DNA of 64,000 nt from Candidatus Accumulibacter sp. ACC003 (GTDB lineage: Bacteria > Pseudomonadota > Gammaproteobacteria > Burkholderiales > Rhodocyclaceae): assembly GCF_907163085.1 (NCBI RefSeq), contig NZ_CAJQTX010000006.1, positions 248,001-312,000 of the forward strand. Reading direction: 5' to 3'. Shown piece by piece: positions 39,783 through 49,971 of the stretch. The notes beneath the pieces were generated by a model. It was given only the letters and a program-made list of their open reading frames with translations, was not told the DNA's origin and made no database searches. Within the stretch, counting starts at the first letter, position 1. Every line of letters starts with the position of its first letter. The translations under genes and the position numbers were made by a program.

Positions 39783-41173
39783 AGCCTCGGTCATGTTTCG
39801 CTGGAGATACAGATTCGGCGGTCAGGTTAAAGACTACACCTGCGGGACTTGGCCAAAAGACTCGCTCGCCCAGATCCGTCAGGTGCGAGCGGATGCCGCT
39901 GCCTACGTCAGTAAGGGTTTGGATCCAACTGAACAGGCGCGCACGCGGAAGCTCTCTGCTCGGGCGGTGCAAGCGGAGGAGCTAGCCAAGCTCAACTGCC
40001 GGATTGCTGAGGCCGAATCTTTCAAGTCACGCCTAAGCGTTCGGGCTCTTTTTGATCGCTGGGAAAGGCTTGAGTTGTCGGCGCGGAAGGATGCCGGCAA
40101 AGAAGCAAGAAGATCGTTCGAGAAAGACGTGTTCCCCAGCCTGGGTGATGTTGCGGCGGAGGATGTCACGAGGCCGATGGTCGCTCAGGTACTTGACAAC
40201 GTTGTGGAAAGAGGCGCCCGCATTCTTGCTCGCAACCTCCTCGGCGACATTCGCCAGATGTACGGCTTCGCCATCGTTCGTGGCCTCGTAACTACTGATC
40301 CGAGCAGCCACATGAAACGCGATGACTTTGGCAAGAAAGTCGAGCGTAGCCGAGTATTGAGTGAGGACGAGGTTCGTTTGCTCAAGAGCAAGCTGTCGGC
40401 GGCCAGAATGGCAAAGACATCGGAACTGGCCGTCTGGATCATCCTCGCGACCTGTTGTCGCGTTGGCGAGCTGTCGATGGCCCGTTGGGATCAGATTGAT
40501 CTTGAAAAAGGCGTCTGGCGCATCCCCCCAGAAGATGCCAAGAATGGCAAGGAGCACACGGTGTTCTTGTCCGATTTCGCGGTCGATCGGTTCAAGGAGC
40601 TTCGCGACATCACGGCTACTTCCTTCAACGCGGAAGGCGTGAAAATTAGATGTCCTTGGGTCTTGCCTTCGCACGATAAGAGCAATCACCTGTGCCTCAA
40701 GTCTTTGGCCAAGCAGATCGGCGATCGCCAGCGGGGTGACAGACCAGCACTGAGCAACCGCAGTAGTAACGTGTCATCTCTAATTCTTCCACGGGGGAAA
40801 TGGACGCCGCACGACCTACGGCGAACTGGAGCCACGTTGATGGGTATGCTCGGTATCCGTCCAGACGTAATTGAAAAGTGCCTTAATCACGTTCAGCAAA
40901 ACAGACTGGTTCGGATCTATCAGCGCCAAGACCTGACATTAGAGCAGAAGAATGCCTGGAGGAGCCTCGGAGAGCTGCTTGACCTGCTCGGGCGAGATAA
41001 CTTAGACGATGTCACATCGCTGCCTCGGGTACCGTCATAAAAGCGCCGGAGTGTGACGCCACTTATCTGAGCTCGCCAGCAACGCCACACGTCAGACTGG
41101 TCCGGCAGATCTGGCGCCGTGCTCGCTGACGCGAACGCTGAACCGCTCGGTTCCCTGAGGTGTTGATCGCCAG

Positions 41174-41827
41174 TTACCTTGTCTGCGAGGACTCGTCCGG
41201 GGTGCCTGCCGTCTCCAAATCGCGATGCTCCACAGCCGGAAGCTCTTTCTCTTCAGCAACCACCCCACCCGTCTCCTTCCGCCGTGCCGCCAGCACCGCA
41301 CGCGTAGCGAGCTGCCGGATCTGTCCGGCCAGACGAAGAATCCGCCGCTTCCATTCATAGACTCCGAGCGCGTATTGGCTGTCGGTGATGACGCATGACA
41401 GCCAGAGCGCATCCAGGTGGGCCATCATCCCGTCGAACTCGCGGATGATCGCCAGGTACCTGATCGAGCGCGGCGAGGTGATCTGCACATCGATGGTCTT
41501 GGCACTGGTGTAGCCGATCGCAGTTTCGATGCCATTGCCCTCGGCAACTTCCTTCAGCCGCAGCGACTCCTTGCGAATCTCGTCCAGAGTCTGGTCGATC
41601 TGACTATCGACCAAGGCGTCGACCTCCTGCGCCTGCTCTTCGCTCCCGATGAATCTCAAGACCACGCTCAACGAGAACAGCGCGTTGGCGCACATCTCGT
41701 AGCCACGGTCGAAGGTCTGCTTCGCGTGCAGTGAATTGAGCACGGCCTTCTGCGTCAGGAAAGGCCGGCTGTTGTCCTGCCGGACCGATGGAATATGCGT
41801 CGAATCGTTCCGCTGTCGCTGTGCCAT
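41174..41827 (-). CDS. integrative-element protein, DUF1845/AcaB-like
   Basis: The 217-residue protein resembles the DUF1845 (PFL_4669/AcaB-like) family encoded in integrative conjugative elements: FLTQKAVLNSLHAKQTFDRG, then TAIGYTSAKTIDVQITSPRS and MAHLDALWLSCVITDSQY. It is mostly helical with no membrane segment. Some relatives are annotated as regulators, but the role is not settled. It is the only gene of this set on the minus strand and is divergent from ssb. Confidence 0.65.
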   Translation of the reverse strand: MAQRQRNDSTHIPSVRQDNSRPFLTQKAVLNSLHAKQTFDRGYEMCANALFSLSVVLRFIGSEEQAQEVDALVDSQIDQTLDEIRKESLRLKEVAEGNGIETAIGYTSAKTIDVQITSPRSIRYLAIIREFDGMMAHLDALWLSCVITDSQYALGVYEWKRRILRLAGQIRQLATRAVLAARRKETGGVVAEEKELPAVEHRDLETAGTPDESSQTR

Positions 41828-41984
41828 TTGCCGTCTCCCGGAGTGTCGATCAAGCCCAGCGTATCGCTTGCACTGCGAGCGCGACCTTCGAAAAGCGCCC
41901 AGAAGCGACGCATTTCAAACTCCTGCGACGACCGTAGCGGCAGAGAATTCAGCCATCTCTCGTTCCGTCTATGACGATCGAAGT

Positions 41985-42083
41985 GAAGGTAGCTGGCCTT
42001 CTTCATAAACAGCATTCTCTCCAACCCCCGGCGGGGTAGCCCCGTCAGGATACGGCGGCGTCCCTGCCTTCCTTGTCAGGAGG
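41985..42083 (+). promoter_or_regulatory. structured leader of ssb: pseudoknot plus hairpin
   Basis: An H-type pseudoknot is predicted: stem GAAGG (41985-41989) / CCTTC (41997-42001), loop TAGCTGG, and loop bases GCTG paired to CAGC (42010-42013). A second hairpin, GGCGGGG (42030-42036) / CCCTGCC (42062-42068), encloses CCGT-CAGGAT-ACGG and is followed by AGGAGG before ATG 42088. It shares the loop and spacing with the leaders at 43312 and 45849. Confidence 0.7.
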
Positions 42084-42087
42084 CCCT

Positions 42088-42537
42088 ATGCCCTCGTTGA
42101 ACAGAGTCACCCTCATCGGCCATCTCGGCGCCGACCCCGAGGTTCGCTACACCCAGAACCGAGAAGCGATTGCCACCATCCGGATCGCGACGACGGAGAT
42201 CAGCAAGGACAAGTCGTCCGGTGAACGCAAGGAAACCACCGAATGGCACCGCGTGATCTTCTTCAACCGTACCGCCGAAGTCGTCGGCGAGTACCTCAGA
42301 AAGGGCTCCCCGATCTACGTCGAAGGCCGCATCCAGACCCGCAAGTGGCAGGACAGCGCAGGTCAGGATCGCTACGTCGTCGAGATCCTCGCCAGCGAGA
42401 TGCAGATGCTCGGTGCTCGTCCATCGGCGAAAGACGCCAAAGCATCGGGTTCCGTCCCGCTTCGTGCCGACACGGTCTCGTCTAATCAGGCAAGCAGTTC
42501 AGCCGGTGACGAAGTGCCGGCCATGGAGCCGTTCTGA
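42088..42537 (+). CDS. ssb: single-stranded DNA-binding protein
   Basis: The 149-residue protein has the OB-fold SSB domain (about residues 1-108: [44 protein letters not shown]) and an acidic tail ending AMEPF, close to the usual DDIPF. The start ATG 42088 has AGGAGG upstream. As an element-borne SSB it probably works with the RecT and RecE-like proteins encoded after it. A structured leader precedes it. Confidence 0.93.
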
Positions 42538-42563
42538 GCAGGTCGTCACGTCTTTTCCCCACC

Positions 42564-42599
42564 GGACGGTCATTCTCCCGGGCCGGGAGCCGACCGTCC
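42564..42599 (+). promoter_or_regulatory. two-stem hairpin leader
   Basis: The outer stem GGACGGTC / GACCGTCC (8 bp) encloses CTCCCGG-G-CCGGGAG (7 bp). It ends 21 bp before ATG 42621, with AGGAGG between. It has the same position as the hairpins in the other leaders of the element. Confidence 0.65.
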
Positions 42600-42620
42600 T
42601 TCACCTCAGGAGGTTCGCTC

Positions 42621-42869
42621 ATGGAACGTGTCATTCTCGTCATCACCATGCTGGCAGGGCTTCAGTTGCTGCTGTCGTTTCTCCGTTACTCAGCACAAGG
42701 CCTCAAGAGCTTGTTGAACCGTAGACCCGAAGCGACGGCAGCGTCCGAACCGGTGAAGGTCACGAGCACCCTTTGGCAGCAATACGACCGACCGGCTTAC
42801 CAGCGCCGGACCGGGATCGACATCGATCCCGCCAAGAGCGGTGAGGCTTCGTTTGAAGTGATCGCCTGA
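42621..42869 (+). CDS. small membrane protein of the integrative element
   Basis: The 82-residue protein has one N-terminal hydrophobic segment (VILVITMLAGLQLLLSFL) and a polar C-terminal part; no family is recognised. AGGAGG precedes the ATG and a strong hairpin precedes that. It lies between ssb and further small genes. Confidence 0.65.
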   Translation: MERVILVITMLAGLQLLLSFLRYSAQGLKSLLNRRPEATAASEPVKVTSTLWQQYDRPAYQRRTGIDIDPAKSGEASFEVIA

Positions 42870-42886
42870 ACGCTCATCCCCCTGCG

Positions 42887-42929
42887 GGGCATCGCCTCCG
42901 CATCAGGGGAGGGATGCCCTTTATTTCTT
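42887..42929 (+). terminator. terminator-like hairpin in a leader
   Basis: GGGCATCGCCTCC (42887-42899) pairs with GGAGGGATGCCC (42908-42919), one bulge, followed by TTTATTTCTT. It lies between the 82-residue protein gene and the GGAGG/ATG of the next small gene, so it could end one transcript or attenuate the next. Confidence 0.7.
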
Positions 42930-42943
42930 AATGGAGGCATCTC

Positions 42944-43021
42944 ATGGCACTCGTTCTTCTTTCTTGCTGCATCACCGGCTGGATCATCAGCCGTCCGATC
43001 ATTCGCGCGCTGGGGCTCTGA
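42944..43021 (+). CDS. 25-residue putative membrane peptide
   Basis: A tiny frame from ATG 42944 with a near-ideal GGAGG spacing encodes MALVLLSCCITGWIISRP and a short tail. It is hydrophobic throughout. It ends two bases before the next start, which suggests translational coupling. The leader hairpin and ribosome-binding site support it, but it is too short for homology. Confidence 0.5.
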   Translation: MALVLLSCCITGWIISRPIIRALGL

Positions 43022-43023
43022 AG

Positions 43024-43215
43024 ATGGCTTTCGACCCCGCACACGATCAAGTCCTGCAATCCAACCCGCTTCTCGTTCGGCTTTTTTCGGCGCTGTCGAT
43101 GGCGCGTGCTTGCGATCTCCACCAGAGACTCCAGGCAGGGCGCACCGACCCGGAAACCCGCCGGCTGCTCCGACGGGCTCTGATCCTCTCGAAGCAAGAA
43201 CAAGCAGCGAACTGA
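43024..43215 (+). CDS. small hypothetical protein
   Basis: The 63-residue, basic, helical protein (LLVRLFSALSMARACDLHQR) follows the 25-residue frame by two bases. No family is recognised. A terminator-like hairpin follows its stop. Confidence 0.55.
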   Translation: MAFDPAHDQVLQSNPLLVRLFSALSMARACDLHQRLQAGRTDPETRRLLRRALILSKQEQAAN

Positions 43216-43220
43216 ACCAC

Positions 43221-43240
43221 GCCCCGGCTTGCCGGGGCTT
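43221..43240 (+). terminator. terminator-like hairpin
   Basis: GCCCCGG-CTTG-CCGGGGC followed by TTTCCC lies directly after the 63-residue protein gene. An equivalent hairpin, with different stem bases and the same trailing CTTTCCC, is found at 45759-45774. Confidence 0.6.
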
Positions 43241-43311
43241 TCCCGAGTGCGTTTCCAAAGCGCCCTCCGGAAAGCAGCCTTTGATCGAGCGATTCTTCGC
43301 CCGAGCAAGTC

Positions 43312-43402
43312 GCGGTAGCTGGCCGCACGAAACAAACAGCATTTTCATCCACCCAGCCGGGGAGGCCATCTCCGGAAGGGGCAGGTGACTCCGGCTTTTT
43401 TT
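43312..43402 (+). promoter_or_regulatory. structured leader of the RecE-like gene: pseudoknot plus hairpin with T7
   Basis: Pseudoknot: stem GCGG (43312-43315) / CCGC (43323-43326), loop TAGCTGG, and loop GCTG paired to CAGC (43337-43340). Hairpin: AGCCGG (43355-43360) / CCGGCT (43391-43396), then a T7 run and TGGAGG before ATG 43417. The hairpin plus T run resembles an attenuator. Confidence 0.7.
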
Positions 43403-43416
43403 CTTCTGGAGGCACC

Positions 43417-44250
43417 ATGGACGTCAAACATCCTGGCCTGCTGCGCATGCCGGCCAAGCAATACCACGCGGATCAATCGATCGGCCATTCGGGAATCATC
43501 AAACTGCTCAAGAGCCCCGCGCATCTGCGCGAAGCCCTCGATCATCCGTCGCCACCCACGCCGGCGATGGCGTTTGGTACCGCGGTTCACACCCACGTCC
43601 TCGAACCGGATCGTTTTTCCGAAGAGTTCGCAGTGGTCGAGAAGTTTGATCGCCGCACCAAGGAAGGCAAGGAAGCCGCCGCCCGCTTCGAGCAAGAGAA
43701 TCAGGGCAAAACCCTGATCACTTCCGACGACCTGGCGACATTGACCCGAGTGCGCGCCGCCGTTCACGCGCACGAGGGGGCGGCCCGCCTGTTCAAGCAA
43801 GGAGAAGCCGAGCTGTCGGCGTTCTGGACAGACCCGCTCACCGGGATCCCCTGTCGCTGTCGTCCGGACTGGTTCAACGGGACGGCCGTGGTCGATCTCA
43901 AGAGCTGTGTCGATGCCAGCAGTCGGGGCTTTTCTCGCGCCATCGCCAACCTCGGCTACGACATTCAAGCGGCGTTCTACGTCGATGGAATGAAAGCCGT
44001 GACCGGCACGGAGCTGCCCTTTCTCTTTGTCGCCGTCGAGAAGGAGGCACCCCATGCCGTGGCGCTTTACCGGGCTGACCCCGAAATCATCGAGGTCGGT
44101 CGCAAGAAGTACCGGGCAGCACTGCAGCTTCTGAAGTGGTGCCAGGATTCTGGCAGCTGGCCGGCTTACCAGCCCGGGGGTGAGATCGAATTGATCTCGC
44201 TACCGCGTTGGGCTGCCAACGCCGACGCCTTCGAGTTCGACGCCGCCTGA
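43417..44250 (+). CDS. PD-(D/E)XK nuclease, RecE/exonuclease VIII-like (DUF3799)
   Basis: The 277-residue protein matches phage-type PD-(D/E)XK exonucleases: AMAFGTAVHTHVLEPDRF near residue 50, then GIPCRCRPDWF and AVVDLKSCVDAS, giving the Asp and the D-x-K catalytic pair, and a late YDIQAAFYVDGM. Paired with RecT (two genes on), it would resect double-strand ends so that RecT can anneal the strands. The start has TGGAGG upstream and a structured leader. Confidence 0.85.
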   Translation: MDVKHPGLLRMPAKQYHADQSIGHSGIIKLLKSPAHLREALDHPSPPTPAMAFGTAVHTHVLEPDRFSEEFAVVEKFDRRTKEGKEAAARFEQENQGKTLITSDDLATLTRVRAAVHAHEGAARLFKQGEAELSAFWTDPLTGIPCRCRPDWFNGTAVVDLKSCVDASSRGFSRAIANLGYDIQAAFYVDGMKAVTGTELPFLFVAVEKEAPHAVALYRADPEIIEVGRKKYRAALQLLKWCQDSGSWPAYQPGGEIELISLPRWAANADAFEFDAA

Positions 44251-44270
44251 TCGGCGGCTATTTTTAGTTT
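44242..44270 (+). terminator. intrinsic terminator after the RecE-like gene
   Basis: GCCGCC-TGATC-GGCGGC followed by TATTTTTAGTTT. The left arm overlaps the last codons and the loop contains the stop of the nuclease gene. This is the clearest intrinsic terminator in the element. Confidence 0.8.
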
Positions 44271-44279
44271 ATCAACCCC

Positions 44280-44324
44280 GGCGGGGAGACCAGTCCCCGC
44301 TCCGGGAGGCATGGTGTCTCCGCC
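44280..44324 (+). promoter_or_regulatory. hairpin leader of recT
   Basis: GGCGGGGAGAC (44280-44290) pairs with GTCTCCGCC (44316-44324) with a two-base bulge, followed by a T-rich stretch and TGGAGG before ATG 44345. No pseudoknot precedes it. Confidence 0.6.
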
Positions 44325-44344
44325 ATTTGTATTTGGAGGAAACC

Positions 44345-45406
44345 ATGTCTCAAACCTTGCGTAACATCCAGAGCGCCCGCCAGGGGAATACGACCAGCGT
44401 GGTGTCTTTTCCAGCGATGCTCGAACAGCTCAAGGGCGAAATCGCCCGCGCGCTGCCCAAGCATCTCAGTGCGGAGCGCATGGCGCGGATCGCACTGACT
44501 GCGTTTCGCATGAATCCGAAGCTGTCTGAAGTGGAGCCACGCAGTGTCGTCGCGGCGGTCATCCAGTCTTGTCAGCTCGGTCTGCAAATCGGCCTGATGG
44601 GCGAAGCGCATCTCGTCGCCTTCGGTAGCCAGTGCCAGTTGATTCCCGGCTATCAGGGGCTCGTGAAACTCGCGCGCAACAGCGGCAGCGTGCAGGACAT
44701 CTATGCGCACGAAGTGCGGATCAACGACAAGTTCGACATCGTCCTGGGCCTCAACCGTTCCTTGATGCACGAGCCGTTGAAGAAGAACGGCTTTCCGGCG
44801 TCCGACGACGAGCGCGGAGCGATCGCCGGTTTCTACGCAGTCGCGGTGTTCACGGATGGCTCACGCACCTTCCACGCCTTGTCGAAGGAGCAGGTCGAGT
44901 GGGTACGTGACCACTCCCGCGGGTACCAGATGGCGAAGAAGAACCGAAAAGAGAGTCCCTGGGACACGCATTTCGTCCCGATGGGCCTCAAGACGGCCAT
45001 TCGCCGCCTGTGCAATCTGCTACCGAAATCGCCGGAGCTGGCCATGGCACTGGCCATGGACGAACTCAACGAACGCGGTAAGACCCAGAACATCGGGATG
45101 GCCGAGGCGATCGACGGCTCCTGGGCTCCGATCATCGACGACGAATCAAGTGAATCGAAGAGTAACGAGGCGGGGGCGGGCGACCAGAAGTCCGGTCGTG
45201 AAGGCGCCAACCCGCCGCTCCATGTGCTCCTCACCAGCATCAGCCAGGCCGCATCCGTTGATGACCTCGACGAACGCTACGCCAAGGCTGAAGACGCCGC
45301 CGACGACGGCGATCTTGAGCAGTTGCTTCGCGCCTATCGCAGCCGTAAGGCAGTGTTGACCGACACGGCTTCACCGGCCAGTGCGATTGTCGGCGTAGCG
45401 AAATGA
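44345..45406 (+). CDS. recT: RecT family single-strand annealing recombinase
   Basis: The 353-residue protein matches RecT: LSAERMARIALTAFRMNPKL, IGLMGEAHLVAFGSQCQL, IPGYQGLVKLARNSG and DTHFVPMGLKTAIRRLCN are family motifs in the usual order. The C-terminal ~100 residues are variable. It promotes annealing of resected strands with the RecE-like nuclease and SSB. GGAGG and a hairpin leader precede it. Confidence 0.92.
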   Translation: MSQTLRNIQSARQGNTTSVVSFPAMLEQLKGEIARALPKHLSAERMARIALTAFRMNPKLSEVEPRSVVAAVIQSCQLGLQIGLMGEAHLVAFGSQCQLIPGYQGLVKLARNSGSVQDIYAHEVRINDKFDIVLGLNRSLMHEPLKKNGFPASDDERGAIAGFYAVAVFTDGSRTFHALSKEQVEWVRDHSRGYQMAKKNRKESPWDTHFVPMGLKTAIRRLCNLLPKSPELAMALAMDELNERGKTQNIGMAEAIDGSWAPIIDDESSESKSNEAGAGDQKSGREGANPPLHVLLTSISQAASVDDLDERYAKAEDAADDGDLEQLLRAYRSRKAVLTDTASPASAIVGVAK

Positions 45407-45430
45407 GCGCCCCGCGAGAAAGCGATCGCG

Positions 45431-45754
45431 GTGTCTCTATCCAGGGCCGATGGCCCGAGCCCACGACGAAAGGCGTCGGTCCGTGCACAGCGAGCAGAGG
45501 CACCTGACGAAGGTTACCCGTGGGCTGACGATGACCTCGTCAGGCTCCACAGGCGCCTGCTGCACAAGTCGCTGCGCGCTCTGTTCGATTCGAGGGTCTG
45601 CGCCACCACACGGGTGGAGATCCTCGACTGGCTGTCCCCGAGGGAGTGCTCGAACGCCTTCTCGTACTACGCGTGCTGCGCGTTCTCTGGCCTCGATCCC
45701 GAAGTGATTTGGGGTCGAGTGCTGGAGCGTTATCGGCGACGCGATTCCCTATAA
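45431..45754 (+). CDS. hypothetical protein of the integrative element
   Basis: The 107-residue protein from GTG 45431 has no recognised family. Its C-terminal ~75 residues look folded (LLHKSLRALFDSR, LDWLSPRECSNAFSYYACC) with three Cys. It follows recT by 24 bp, so it is probably co-transcribed. The exact start is uncertain. Confidence 0.55.
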   Translation: MSLSRADGPSPRRKASVRAQRAEAPDEGYPWADDDLVRLHRRLLHKSLRALFDSRVCATTRVEILDWLSPRECSNAFSYYACCAFSGLDPEVIWGRVLERYRRRDSL

Positions 45755-45758
45755 ACCT

Positions 45759-45774
45759 CCGGCGGCAACGCCGG
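45759..45774 (+). terminator. terminator-like hairpin
   Basis: CCGGCG-GCAA-CGCCGG followed by GCTTTCCC lies just after the 107-residue protein gene and mirrors the hairpin at 43221-43240. Confidence 0.55.
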
Positions 45775-45848
45775 GCTTTCCCAAGAGGGTTGACGCAGCC
45801 CTTTGCGGAAAGCGGATTCTGGACCCATCCGTCGGATGGGACCTGAAA

Positions 45849-45900
45849 AGCGGTAGCTGGCCGCTACAAACAAACAGCATTTCTACCACCCCACGCGGGG
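45849..45900 (+). promoter_or_regulatory. structured leader: pseudoknot plus hairpin
   Basis: Pseudoknot: stem AGCGG (45849-45853) / CCGCT (45861-45865), loop TAGCTGG, and loop GCTG paired to CAGC (45875-45878). The hairpin CCCC-ACGC-GGGG follows at 45889-45900. GGAGG and ATG 45953 lie downstream at the same spacing as in the other two copies. Confidence 0.7.
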
Positions 45901-45952: not shown

Positions 45953-46186
45953 ATGACTCAAGTACCCCGGAGCACCGGCTATCGGTACTTCATCAACCTG
46001 GACGAGCGCGGCAGCTTCTCCGCCGACGTCCGTAACCCGCGTAAAAAAACCATTTTCGAGATCCACGGATTCCAGATCTTCGAGGACGGTTGGATGCTGT
46101 ACCGCCGCGACCTCGATGGACTGAAGCAGTACCTCGTCGATCTGGGACTCATGAACCGCGAGGACGACCTCGCAATGGGTCAATAG
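45953..46186 (+). CDS. small hypothetical protein of the integrative element
   Basis: The 77-residue protein (GYRYFINLDERGSFSADVRN, then IFEDGWMLYRRDLDGL) has an alpha/beta look but no recognised family. GGAGG precedes the ATG and the third pseudoknot leader precedes that. Confidence 0.65.
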   Translation: MTQVPRSTGYRYFINLDERGSFSADVRNPRKKTIFEIHGFQIFEDGWMLYRRDLDGLKQYLVDLGLMNREDDLAMGQ

Positions 46187-46284: not shown

Positions 46285-46325
46285 CCGGTGACACACCCCG
46301 GAAGGGGTACGTGTCTCCGGCTTTT
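46285..46325 (+). promoter_or_regulatory. hairpin leader of the methylase/helicase gene
   Basis: CCGGTGACAC (46285-46294) pairs with GTGTCTCCGG (46311-46320), enclosing ACCCC-GGAA-GGGGT with a GNRA-type loop, followed by CTTTTC and AAGGAG before GTG 46339. Confidence 0.65.
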
Positions 46326-49300
46326 CAAGGAGACCCACGTGAAACTCACTCAACTCGCCCAGACCACTCTGTGGCTGCCGGGCTTTGCTCCTCAAGATTC
46401 GCAAGCAGTGCTCGCTGCAGGCCAGACGGCGGAGATCATCGCCTTTCCGCTCGTCGAACCGACGTGCTCTCCGGCTCCGGCAACGGGGCCAGCTCGCAGT
46501 CTCTGGGACCCACTCGACCCTGCGCTGCATGCGAGTCTTCGTGGTGACGTCGCCAAGTTCGAAGCGAACCTGGCGGCCATCGCGCTCCTCTCCAGCCTGG
46601 CCGCAGAGAACCGCGCTGCCCACGACGACGAGCGCGCCGTCCTCAACCGGTTCACCGGATGGGGCGGCATTCCCAAGGCGTTCAATCCCGATCAGGACGA
46701 TCGGGCGTGGAAGGCGAGAGCCCAATCCCTGCCCGATGTGTTGGGCGAAGATTACGAAAGCGCCAAGGCGAGTGTCGTCAACGCCCACTTCACGGAAGTC
46801 TTCGTGATCGAGGCGATGTGGCGCGCCGTTCGCCGGTTGGGTTTTCGCGGCGGCCGTGTGCTGGAACCCTCTGCCGGCGTCGGCTACTTCATCGGGGCGA
46901 TGCCAAGAGATTTGGCCGCAACCTCGGACGTGACGGCTGTCGAGATCGATCGCGTGTCGTCGCGCATCCTGTCGGGCCTGTATGGTCCTCATGGTGTGAG
47001 GACCCTCGCGGTCGGTTTCGAAAAAGCGCGCTTGCCGAAGGACTGGTACGACCTCGTGATCTCGAACGTTCCCTTCGGGAACTACCCGGTGCCCGAGGAC
47101 CGCAATGTGCCGTATGCCAACTTCCTCATCCACGACTACTTCTTTGCTCGCGCTCTGGAGGTGACTCGCCCCGGTGGACTGGTGGCATTCATCACCTCCG
47201 CCGGGACGCTCGACAAGGGCGATGACCGGGCACGGCGCCATATCCGTGACCGGGCCCGATTCCTCGGCGCGATTCGTTTACCGTCCGGCACGTTCTCGCA
47301 GATTGCCAACACCGATGTCACGACCGATATTGTCTTCCTCCAGAAACTGGCGGAGGGTGAGCAGGCCGCCGGCGACTGGATCGGCGTCAGCGAAGCCCCG
47401 CGGTCGATATGTGACACGGATCGACGCCTGTTCGTCTCGAGTTGGTATGTCCACCATCCGGACCTGCTGATCGGTCGCATGGGGCTCAAGTCGAATGGCT
47501 TCGGTCCGGCCAATGCGGCGATCTTTGACGGCGATGTTGGCAGCGCATTGACAGAGCGCGTTGCCCGCTTGCCCGAGGACGTGTATCTCCCTCGTGCCGT
47601 CGAGAACCTGTTGTCGATGCCGCGGGAGAGCCTTGTCGCTGCACCGGAGTTCGTCAAGCCCGGCGCGTACTGCCTGACCCCGGATGGCCGCCTGGCCATC
47701 TCGGAAGGCGATGCGTTGCGGGTCATCGACGCGACGCTATCAACCGCCCGGCGGATTCGCGGCTTGATGGCGATTCGCGATATGGCACGCCGGCTCTTGC
47801 ACCTACAGCCCGTCACGGCGGACGATGGTCGACTCGGCGAACACCGGGCCGCCCTGAACACCGCCTACGATACCTTCGTGGCGCAACACGGCATTCTCCA
47901 CGCGACGGTCAACAAGCGGGCGTTCAAGGGGGATCCGGATCTGCCGCTGCTGCTCTCCCTCGAGGACTTCGATCGGGAAAGCAGCACGGCCGAGAAGGCG
48001 GACATCTTCTCCCGCAGAACGGTGGGCGCGGTCCGCAAGGTGGAGCGCTGTTCGTCGGCCGACGAAGCGCTGCTGGTCTCCCTGCACGAACGCGGACGCG
48101 TCAATCCGACGCTGATGGCATCCTTGCTGGGGCAGGCGGTTGAGCAGTTTCTCCCGGATCTGGCGGGTCGTGGCCTGATCTTTCTCGATCCGCAATCCGG
48201 CGACTGGGAAACCGCCGATGCCTATCTCTCCGGCAACGTGCGCGACAAGCTGGCGATGGCGGAAACGGCCGGGGAAGCCTATCTCCCCAACGTCGAAGCC
48301 CTGCAGGCGGTCATCCCGACGGACCTGGGGCCGGGTGAAATCGATGCCCGGATTGGCTCGACCTGGATCCCCTCGCGTGACTACGGCGCATTCCTCGATC
48401 ATCTCCTGGAATGCGAGGGTTGCACGGTGGAGTTCAATGCCGAGGCCGGTGCGTGGAACATCGACGTGCCATGGCCAGGCGAACGCTCGGTCGCCTCGAC
48501 GCAAACCTACGGCACCGGGCGCATGACGGCGGGTGAGCTTTTCCTGATCAGCCTGAACCAGATGGTTCCGACAATTCGGGACCGGGATCCGGTCACCGAG
48601 CGGTCTGTCGTGAACCCGAAGGAAACCCTCGTCGCCAGGGAAAAGCAGCAGGCACTCAAGGAGCAGTTCCGATCCTGGGTGTTCGCCGATCCCGAACGGT
48701 GCGAGCGGCTGGTCAGGCGCTACAACGACCAGTTCAACGCGGTTCGATTGCGGACGTTCGACGGTTCAGGGCTCTCTTTACCGGGGTTCTCCGAGGTGTA
48801 CGCGCTTCATCGGCACCAGAAGGACGCCATCTGGCGAATCGTCTCCAGCGGGGTGAATACCCTGCTGGCGCACGTCGTCGGTGCCGGCAAGACCCTGACC
48901 ATGGTCTGCGCCGGCATGGAGTTGCGGCGCCTCGGCCGAGCCAGCAAGCCGTGCTACGTGGTGCCCAACCACATGCTGGAGCAGTTCGCGACGGAGTTTT
49001 TGCGCGCCTATCCGGGGGCCAACCTCCTGATGGCCAGCAAGGACGACCTGGCCGGTGACCAACGCCGGACGTTACTGTCCCGGATTGCTACCGGCGACTG
49101 GGATGCCGTGCTGATTACCCATGCCTCTTTCGAGAGGATCAAGATGAGCGACGCCTCCATGGCATCGTTCATCAAAGCGCGTGTCCACGAAATCGAGCGC
49201 GCCATCCGGGCCTCGACATCGGAGCAGCGGGGGAATCGGATCGTCAAGGAGTTGGAGCGGGCCAAGAAGGTCTGGCTCGCCAGGCTGGAGAAGCTGTCGG

Positions 49301-49971
49301 CTCGTTCGAAAAAGGATGACCTGCTCACGTTCGAGGAACTGGGCATCGACTACCTGTTTGTCGACGAGGCGCACTACTTCAAGAACCTGTACCGCTTCAC
49401 CAAAATGACGCGGGTTGCGGGTTTGCCGAACAGCCACTCAGAGCGCGCCTTCGATCTGTTCGTGAAGACGCGCCATGTGATGGGCGAGCAGGGTGGCCGT
49501 TCGGGGGTGGTATTCGCGACCGGGACACCGGTTTCGAACTCGATGGCCGAGATGTGGACCATGCAACGCTACTTGCAGCCGGCGACGCTGGACACCCATC
49601 AGCTATCGCACTTCGACACCTGGGCGGGCAACTTCGGGGAATCGGTCACGGCGCTGGAGTTGTCGCCGGATGGGAGTGGCTATCGCATGAACACGCGTTT
49701 CGCACGCTTCGTCAATTTACCGGAGCTGATGACAGCCCTGACGCATGACCTCCCCGAATCGACAGCACTTGCCGGTTACGCCCACTTTCGCCGCCGAGGC
49801 GGCCAGATGGGGGTTGGCTAGCGGCAAGGGAGCGCTTGCGGCGCGGGGGTTTGGTGTTCAGTCAGTGGGACAGGAGAGGTCGAGGGAGCTCCGTTACGAT
49901 CGCCAGGCGAGCCTTTCCCGGCGCGGGGTGCGCCGCGCTTGGGAAGATGTGTTGGGCAGGCCTGGGCAAGG

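Follow-up and report, generated by a model that had tools for sequence, protein, structure and literature searches.

A 64,000 nt stretch of DNA from Candidatus Accumulibacter sp. ACC003 (GCF_907163085.1, contig NZ_CAJQTX010000006.1, positions 248,001-312,000; here called the window) contains, ahead of three genes of a mobile element, a recurrent RNA unit made of a hairpin (P0) followed by an H-type pseudoknot. The helices of this unit covary, it lies on the sense strand a short distance before start codons, it is repeated along a module of DNA-handling genes, it is linked to the regulatory gene acaB, and the sequences around it are enriched in terminator-like helices and in helices that mask the ribosome-binding site (RBS). 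It is proposed, with a probability of roughly 0.4, that AcaB-type MOBH conjugative elements use this unit as a cis-acting leader RNA, which would carry transcription through attenuator-like leaders or open them. The pseudoknots of the window, the letters of which were verified, are the following.

41985..42013, plus strand: copy 1, in the ssb leader (GAAGG 41985-41989, TAGCTGG 41990-41996, CCTTC 41997-42001, CAGC 42010-42013), with covariation in relatives
43312..43340, plus strand: copy 2, in the leader of a RecE-like gene (GCGG 43312-43315, TAGCTGG 43316-43322, CCGC 43323-43326, CAGC 43337-43340)
45849..45878, plus strand: copy 3, in the leader of a gene for a 77 amino acid protein (AGCGG 45849-45853, TAGCTGG 45854-45860, CCGCT 45861-45865, CAGC 45875-45878)

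These three pseudoknots, and the genes that they precede, had been described in an earlier reading made from the letters of the DNA (the sequence-only reading), and the letters match; the joint pattern of stem, loop and tail is present three times in the window, compared with a mean of 0.00 over 100 shuffles. The distance from the last base of CAGC to the start codon is 74, 76 and 74 nt for copies 1, 2 and 3, which makes the 72-74 nt given previously approximate. The loop TAGCTGG, reported as invariant, is so in the three copies of the window but not in every relative, as TAACTGG, TAGCTAG and TAGCACTGG are also found. Recent duplication alone does not account for the copies, which differ mutually in stem, spacer and flanks and have strongly diverged counterparts in other elements. 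Two further exact copies are on another contig of the same genome, within a stretch that is 98 % identical to window 41269-45817.

The stem around the loop (S1) and the helix formed by GCTG of the loop with CAGC of the tail (S2) were assessed in alignments of relatives, of which A1 holds 49 of 67 representatives and A4 49 of 62 cores, while A5 (10) and A6 (16) were hand-picked. In 49 diverse cores both sides change in all five S1 pairs, the pair adjoining the loop being GC, AU, CG or UA across relatives, and 93.2 % of the S1 and S2 cells pair. The covariation score of S1 and S2 together is 0.479, compared with 0.140 when shuffled (0 of 500) and at most 0.115 in slid alignments; an earlier alignment with overlapping membership gave 0.470 and 0.134. 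For S2, 194 of 196 cells pair and five are double-changed, against 0.6 in shuffles (0 of 500), the changes being ACTG/CAGT in Pseudoalteromonas and two Halomonas copies and GCTA/TAGC in Pseudoalteromonas and Vibrio. Pairs of S2 changed on both sides number only 2 versus 0.5, a value reached by 34 of 500 shuffles. Counting against S2, copies on the Pseudoalteromonas plasmid have ACTG opposite CAGC, so that the terminal pair is an A.C mismatch (3 of 91 rows). The predicted structure is an H-type pseudoknot with two helices, each backed by compensatory change, and the A-rich spacer between S1 and CAGC would be compatible with a loop crossing the S1 groove. Selection on the covarying stem and on the loop-tail helix, as claimed in the sequence-only reading, is borne out by these alignments.

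Scoring of loop and tail letters, without requiring the stem, gave 272 distinct hits in all loci gathered by then. The first four S1 pairs all form in 150 of these, three form in 16, and two or fewer in 106, a two-peaked distribution; among viral loci, taken as a chance control, all four form in 1 of 62 such hits. Three chance or doubtful loci (L086, L088 and L275; L denotes loci and G genomes) are kept in the 272 and 150 and dropped from several later counts.

An RNA rather than a DNA form is well supported on the sequence evidence, because G.U exceeds A.C on the sense strand, start codons are close by and promoters are in register. Over all helices there are 59 G.U cells and 10 A.C cells, a count that is biased by the share of P0, chosen by folding; S1 and S2 alone give 8 and 2. 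A start codon is 60-125 nt away in 107 of 129 copies, where distances, like all leader counts here, depend on a simple rule for guessing start codons. The sequence-only reading had allowed for either RNA or single-stranded DNA; a selected structure is confirmed, and of the two RNA is favoured. A structure formed in single-stranded DNA during transfer, as a primosome or single-stranded promoter site, is a distant prospect: the adjoining genes handle single-stranded DNA and the copies share one strand within each of seven plasmid records, but this co-orientation is just as expected for leaders, and the G.U excess, the nearness of start codons and a sigma70-like promoter in register in seven copies argue for RNA. 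Even less credible is an operator in double-stranded DNA, for example an activator box. The core is conserved and the first copy adjoins a divergent regulator gene, but the stem letters, also those of the pair adjoining the loop, vary freely provided that pairing is kept, and a protein reading the sequence would hardly tolerate such freely covarying letters.

When one genome per species was scanned for the conserved core, at least 118 stretches were identified; the carriers include Candidatus Accumulibacter, Sulfuritalea, Comamonas, Alcanivorax, Shewanella, Providencia and Vibrio. When one copy was compared by blastn (E<=10) with 72,556 plasmid records, 878 matched, 775 of these records over at least 80 % of the copy; 846 of the 878 are classed as conjugative, and the places matched total 5,552. 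IncA/IncC plasmids are among the hosts. Matches were found in 107 of 5,426 complete E. coli genomes, at 613 places, 602 of which are on plasmids. Seven whole plasmid records hold 7, 7, 12, 7, 6, 7 and 4 copies (E<=0.01, with a covariance model built partly from their own copies). These form one cluster of roughly 15-50 kb in six of the plasmids; in the Halomonas plasmid the fourth copy is some 38 kb from the remaining three. Five of the seven are typed as conjugative with MOBH; the other two, pSTJ2 and the Halomonas plasmid, are typed as non-mobilizable, yet the former has a gene for a MobH relaxase and the latter has tra genes. Neighbouring copies are at least 688 nt apart in all 66 neighbour pairs of the strict set; the sole exception seen is L152, with two model-placed copies about 170 nt apart.

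Among 274 genomes of the host class only the own genome is positive under the stricter filters of Infernal, whereas the strict motif is present in 15 of 150 genomes of the host family, own genome included. A pattern allowing two mismatches matches 29 of 398 genomes of the phylum, of which only G000 and G019 were judged real; the other 27 matches lack a stem or a cluster and were discounted. Scans of viral sequences gave one 4.6 kb contig (L344), filed as viral in IMG/VR, with genes recognized by eye as encoding an AAA ATPase, ssb, a bet-like and an exonuclease-like protein. By gene content this lone contig is a fragment of a conjugative element, and spread through phages was rejected. In a phage collection seven records match at E<=10, the one covering over 80 % of the probe being a Salmonella genomic-island record. 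There is also a single-copy class (L144 3295, L146 282, L156 6837, L198 849, L232 245 and L248 1503), with a sigma70-like promoter of at least 10 of 12 matches in five of the six. In the host-family genomes with this class (G040 and G126) acaB was not found, and it may be a stand-alone RNA.

In the 150 genomes of the host family, acaB is present in 14, the strict motif in 15 and both in 13 (Fisher p 8e-16), and a copy adjoins acaB in 18 of 19 acaB loci, including two of G050 that were overlooked by the strict pattern. A third acaB homologue of the own genome (L336, contig 11; 90 % identity) has upstream sequence that lacks the pseudoknot and looks replaced. For plasmids with distant AcaB proteins (26-31 % identity; L339-L342), no copy at E below 0.01 was found in the stretches read. 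TraI_2 and TraU genes are on the own contig, some 44 kb beyond, and suggest, short of proof, that an integrative conjugative element of MOBH type has one of its ends in the window. The genes around the copies are listed here.

39793..41040, plus strand: tyrosine integrase gene adjoining the module (Pfam Phage_integrase, 4.4e-18)
41174..41827, minus strand: acaB homologue, divergent from copy 1 (57 % identity over 168 amino acids to the AcaB-family regulator of pSTJ2)
42088..42537, plus strand: ssb (Pfam SSB, E 7e-36)
43417..44250, plus strand: RecE-like nuclease gene (Pfam DUF3799, 1.4e-45; NCBIfam exodeoxyribonuclease VIII model, 4.8e-45, below the model cut-off)
44345..45406, plus strand: recT (Pfam RecT, 4.8e-38)
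45953..46186, plus strand: gene for the 77 amino acid protein, without a match in the family search

The acaB homologue of the window has no Pfam match of its own, and the AcaB-family protein of pSTJ2 is itself 39 % identical to that of pRA1. Between acaB and the first copy there is a palindrome-like box, perhaps an activator site, at about 41885-41925 in the window and at matching places in L271, L309 and L312 (in pRA1, for example, GTGCCCAAAATGGACA). The module of pSTJ2 includes a tRNA-Asp gene behind its first pseudoknot copy (L312 19091-19164). Across the collection, the genes behind copies encode ssb, DUF3799/RecE-like nucleases, RecT, an AAA ATPase, DUF3150, RadC and many unknowns (129 downstream open reading frames in 44 clusters, guessed and in some cases wrongly).

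The sequence-only reading captured the pseudoknot and overlooked both the upstream hairpin and the structured leaders downstream. For P0, double changes were observed in 4 of 10 pairs among 16 hand-picked copies of one type, 9 cells compared with 2.3 in shuffles (0 of 500). In 10 leaders of the RecE-like type (A5) two pairs are double-changed, with a shuffled mean of 2.0, which is weak by itself. The fold test gives a mean z of -2.12 for P0 and -1.62 for an upstream control stretch; because this control is structured too, the test proves little alone and covariation carries P0. Many internal copies are preceded by an additional hairpin (P-1), whose closing arms are TTTCC and GGAAAG. The GGAAAG box is present in 65 distinct copies; TTTCC lies upstream of it in 48, and in those 48 the inner helix has a mean of 7.6 bp in an anchored test, against 3.8 bp when shuffled; taken as one uninterrupted helix, P-1 is little different from shuffles. 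The upstream features of the window are as follows.

41960..41981, plus strand: P0 of copy 1 (fold; weakly predicted, z -0.1; P0 covariation comes from relatives)
43221..43241, plus strand: terminator-like hairpin 5′ of copy 2 (letters; only three T; class statistics)
43238..43275, plus strand: P-1 of copy 2 (CTTTCC ... GGAAAG)
43280..43309, plus strand: P0 of copy 2 (fold, z -0.6; support from leaders of the same type)
45759..45779, plus strand: terminator-like hairpin 5′ of copy 3 (letters; only three T)
45776..45813, plus strand: P-1 of copy 3 (letters; anchored P-1 test)
45817..45847, plus strand: P0 of copy 3 (fold, z -2.6)

Between -130 and -40 a terminator-like hairpin is present in 90 of 142 copies, compared with 7 of 142 when shuffled, and a sigma70-like promoter (at least 10 of 12 matches) in 7 of 142, compared with none; no copy has both. 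In the promoter class, P0 would start about where the transcript is expected to start. In internal copies the stretch from the hairpin to P0 offers, outside P-1, no obvious space for a promoter, and therefore their RNA is probably made by read-through. A shortened pseudoknot core without P0, with a strong promoter directly 5′, was observed at L143 537-600, L184 5727-5790 and L236 1716-1781, all weak model matches (E 0.08). Such positions would suit a 5′ stabilizer or processing signal, in which P-1 is cut and P0 with the pseudoknot shields the new or original 5′ end of the mRNA: promoter-proximal copies have P0 close to the predicted 5′ end, many internal copies have it immediately after P-1, and the three shortened cores follow their promoters directly. 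This explanation is nevertheless improbable, as it does not explain the hairpins behind the pseudoknot (B and C, below) and the strong conservation of the loop suggests a specific contact.

Behind the pseudoknot, the fold of many leaders comprises two hairpins, A and C, the 3′ arm of C being the Shine-Dalgarno sequence. A helix of at least 7 bp covering the RBS is present in 61 of 120 leaders, compared with 20 % of shuffles, 9 of 40 open reading frames of the window, 2 of 16 tra genes and 19 of 75 other module genes. In 43 of 97 pseudoknot leaders (5.9 % when shuffled) a competing long-loop helix (B) with a U-rich tail lies just 5′ of the start codon. Helix B was also identified at 30 of 80 listed module genes with no copy close upstream, excluding L309 34405 and L312 32023, which do have a copy and are not positive. 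In the controls it was found at 2 of 37 genes upstream of acaB and 5 of 40 open reading frames of the window. The lists of module and tra genes were taken from annotations and are partial. Since helix B is also ahead of module genes that lack a copy, a sizeable part of the module, beyond the pseudoknot genes, would be interrupted by attenuator-like leaders, among which the pseudoknot is found repeatedly. The window has the following downstream features.

42014..42087, plus strand: leader from copy 1 to ssb (CCCC/GGGG hairpin and a 7 bp GGCGGGG/CCCTGCC helix ahead of the Shine-Dalgarno sequence)
43355..43402, plus strand: hairpin B of copy 2 (AGCCGGGG / CTCCGGCT plus a T run, terminator-like; class statistics; spotted by eye, the automated test having chosen a different helix)
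43384..43416, plus strand: hairpin C of copy 2 (GGTGACTCC / GGAGGCACC, one A.G mismatch; covers the Shine-Dalgarno sequence; B and C of this copy are mutually exclusive)
44264..44344, plus strand: recT leader (12 bp helix, U-rich tail; attenuator-like, without a pseudoknot)
46285..46328, plus strand: leader of a helicase-like gene (9 bp helix, U-rich tail; without a pseudoknot)

Further downstream, 46339-49821 encodes a 1160 amino acid protein with helicase domains, which has a weak match, far below the cut-off, to a model of the anti-phage MAD2 methyltransferase.

The main rival is a translational leader to which a protein of the element or the host (SSB, AcaB or another) would bind, at P0 and the pseudoknot, and open or close the Shine-Dalgarno hairpin gene by gene. 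This is considered somewhat unlikely. The RBS-covering helices, more frequent in these leaders than in the other module genes, the nearby start codons and the copy beside acaB would all fit it, and there is a precedent in gp32 of phage T4, reported to bind a pseudoknot in the leader of its own gene (PMC3014915). However, copies precede many unrelated genes, for which simple self-control by SSB is insufficient and was rejected as a general rule, and the terminator-like helices at module genes without a copy are left unexplained. Because a gene-by-gene translational switch does not explain those helices, antitermination is ranked first.

In the antitermination model, P0 and the pseudoknot act as a unit, several copies of which, in a shared orientation, are spread over a single module of DNA-handling genes, and many of the leaders behind them would fold either as the terminator-like hairpin B or as hairpins masking the Shine-Dalgarno sequence. 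By itself or together with a bound factor, the folded RNA would let the elongating polymerase pass the attenuators and the terminator-like hairpins between genes, and the repeated copies would reload this effect every few genes. Transcription through the module, termination at B, its relief by the pseudoknot and action over several genes are all predicted from sequence. Two outputs would fit: termination could be relieved at B and the inter-gene hairpins, or the Shine-Dalgarno sequence could be opened. Several findings weigh against this model. The hairpins between genes frequently end in just three T, and upstream of 45 of the 142 copies there is no terminator-like hairpin and no good promoter. 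In 54 of 97 pseudoknot leaders B is below the threshold, and within the window it is clear by eye in copy 2, has 7 bp in copy 1 and is absent by the test in copy 3. The RBS-masking hairpins equally suggest translational control, the six loci of the single-copy class have one copy followed by apparently non-coding sequence, and no gene with a NusG domain (PF02357) was found in six plasmid records as a protein partner.

Neither the window nor six related loci contain a hit to any Rfam 15 family at its gathering score, and the copies themselves have no Rfam match at E<=10 (window 41-47 kb) or E<=1 (pRA1 module), the weak hits falling elsewhere. JUMPstart/ops (RF01707), the Rfam model of which does not match here, contains GGTAGCTG and GGCGGTAGC; some of the present copies resemble these letters, but the letters before TAGC vary. 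Exact matches to the ops-like pattern GGCGGTAGCNT were seen in pRA1 (L271 5387-5397 and 32268-32278). JUMPstart is reported as a hairpin leader linked to altered transcript elongation (PMC2864571). STAXI (RF01728), suggested as one identity in the sequence-only reading, is likewise a pseudoknot RNA close to ssb and further DNA-handling genes, but is described as tandem-repeated pseudoknots, with frequent UUCG loops, in the Enterobacteriales (PMC2864571), whereas the present copies, L152 excepted, are well spaced. This identity was rejected: RF01728 is absent at the gathering score, at E<=10 in window 41-47 kb and at E<=1 in the pRA1 module.

Among cis-acting RNAs reported to relieve termination are EAR and put of phage HK022 (PMC2864571; PMC9378689; PMC8955417). 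EAR is the epsC motif (RF01735), for which a pseudoknot was predicted (PMC2864571); its Rfam model has no match here. EAR belongs to Bacillus exopolysaccharide operons and put to a phage early operon, and antitermination by the present RNA would be an extension from them. Another related system is conAn of pLS20-type plasmids, where conjugation operons with many internal terminators have an RNA part, conAn2 (PMC8955417). That system is Gram-positive, stands once at the operon start and includes the protein processivity factor ConAn1, whereas several copies are present here. By analogy, conAn, put and EAR would be precedents for antitermination (PMC8955417; PMC9378689). The pseudoknot bound by T4 gp32, which lies 67 nt before the start codon of gene 32 (PMC3014915), is also ahead of a gene for a single-stranded DNA-binding protein; as described, it serves one gene, with an A+U-rich unstructured RBS stretch and no repeats before other genes. 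In literature with little subscription coverage, no description was found of a shared RNA ahead of the recombination and DNA-metabolism genes of IncA/IncC plasmids. Structured cis-regulatory RNA is a known kind; the RNA family, the repeated layout and the tie to acaB-type elements appear new.

A bolder version of the antitermination model, which is doubtful, is RNA-based processive antitermination in Gram-negative conjugative elements. The pseudoknot RNA, by itself or with a partner, would make the polymerase termination-proof and be reloaded 6-12 times over a module of 15-50 kb, and read-through of B would at once capture the anti-Shine-Dalgarno strand. If so, only transcripts from modified polymerase would be translatable, and one RNA would guard the whole module against stray transcription.

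IncA/IncC plasmids are much-studied and clinically common carriers of resistance genes, and the element offers a handle on the switching of their recombination and DNA-metabolism module. It also marks a family of conjugative elements that spans the betaproteobacteria to Vibrio. If antitermination is true, a Gram-negative RNA-based system would join the few that are known. The RNA looks like an undescribed switch that controls the DNA-handling genes of these elements together.

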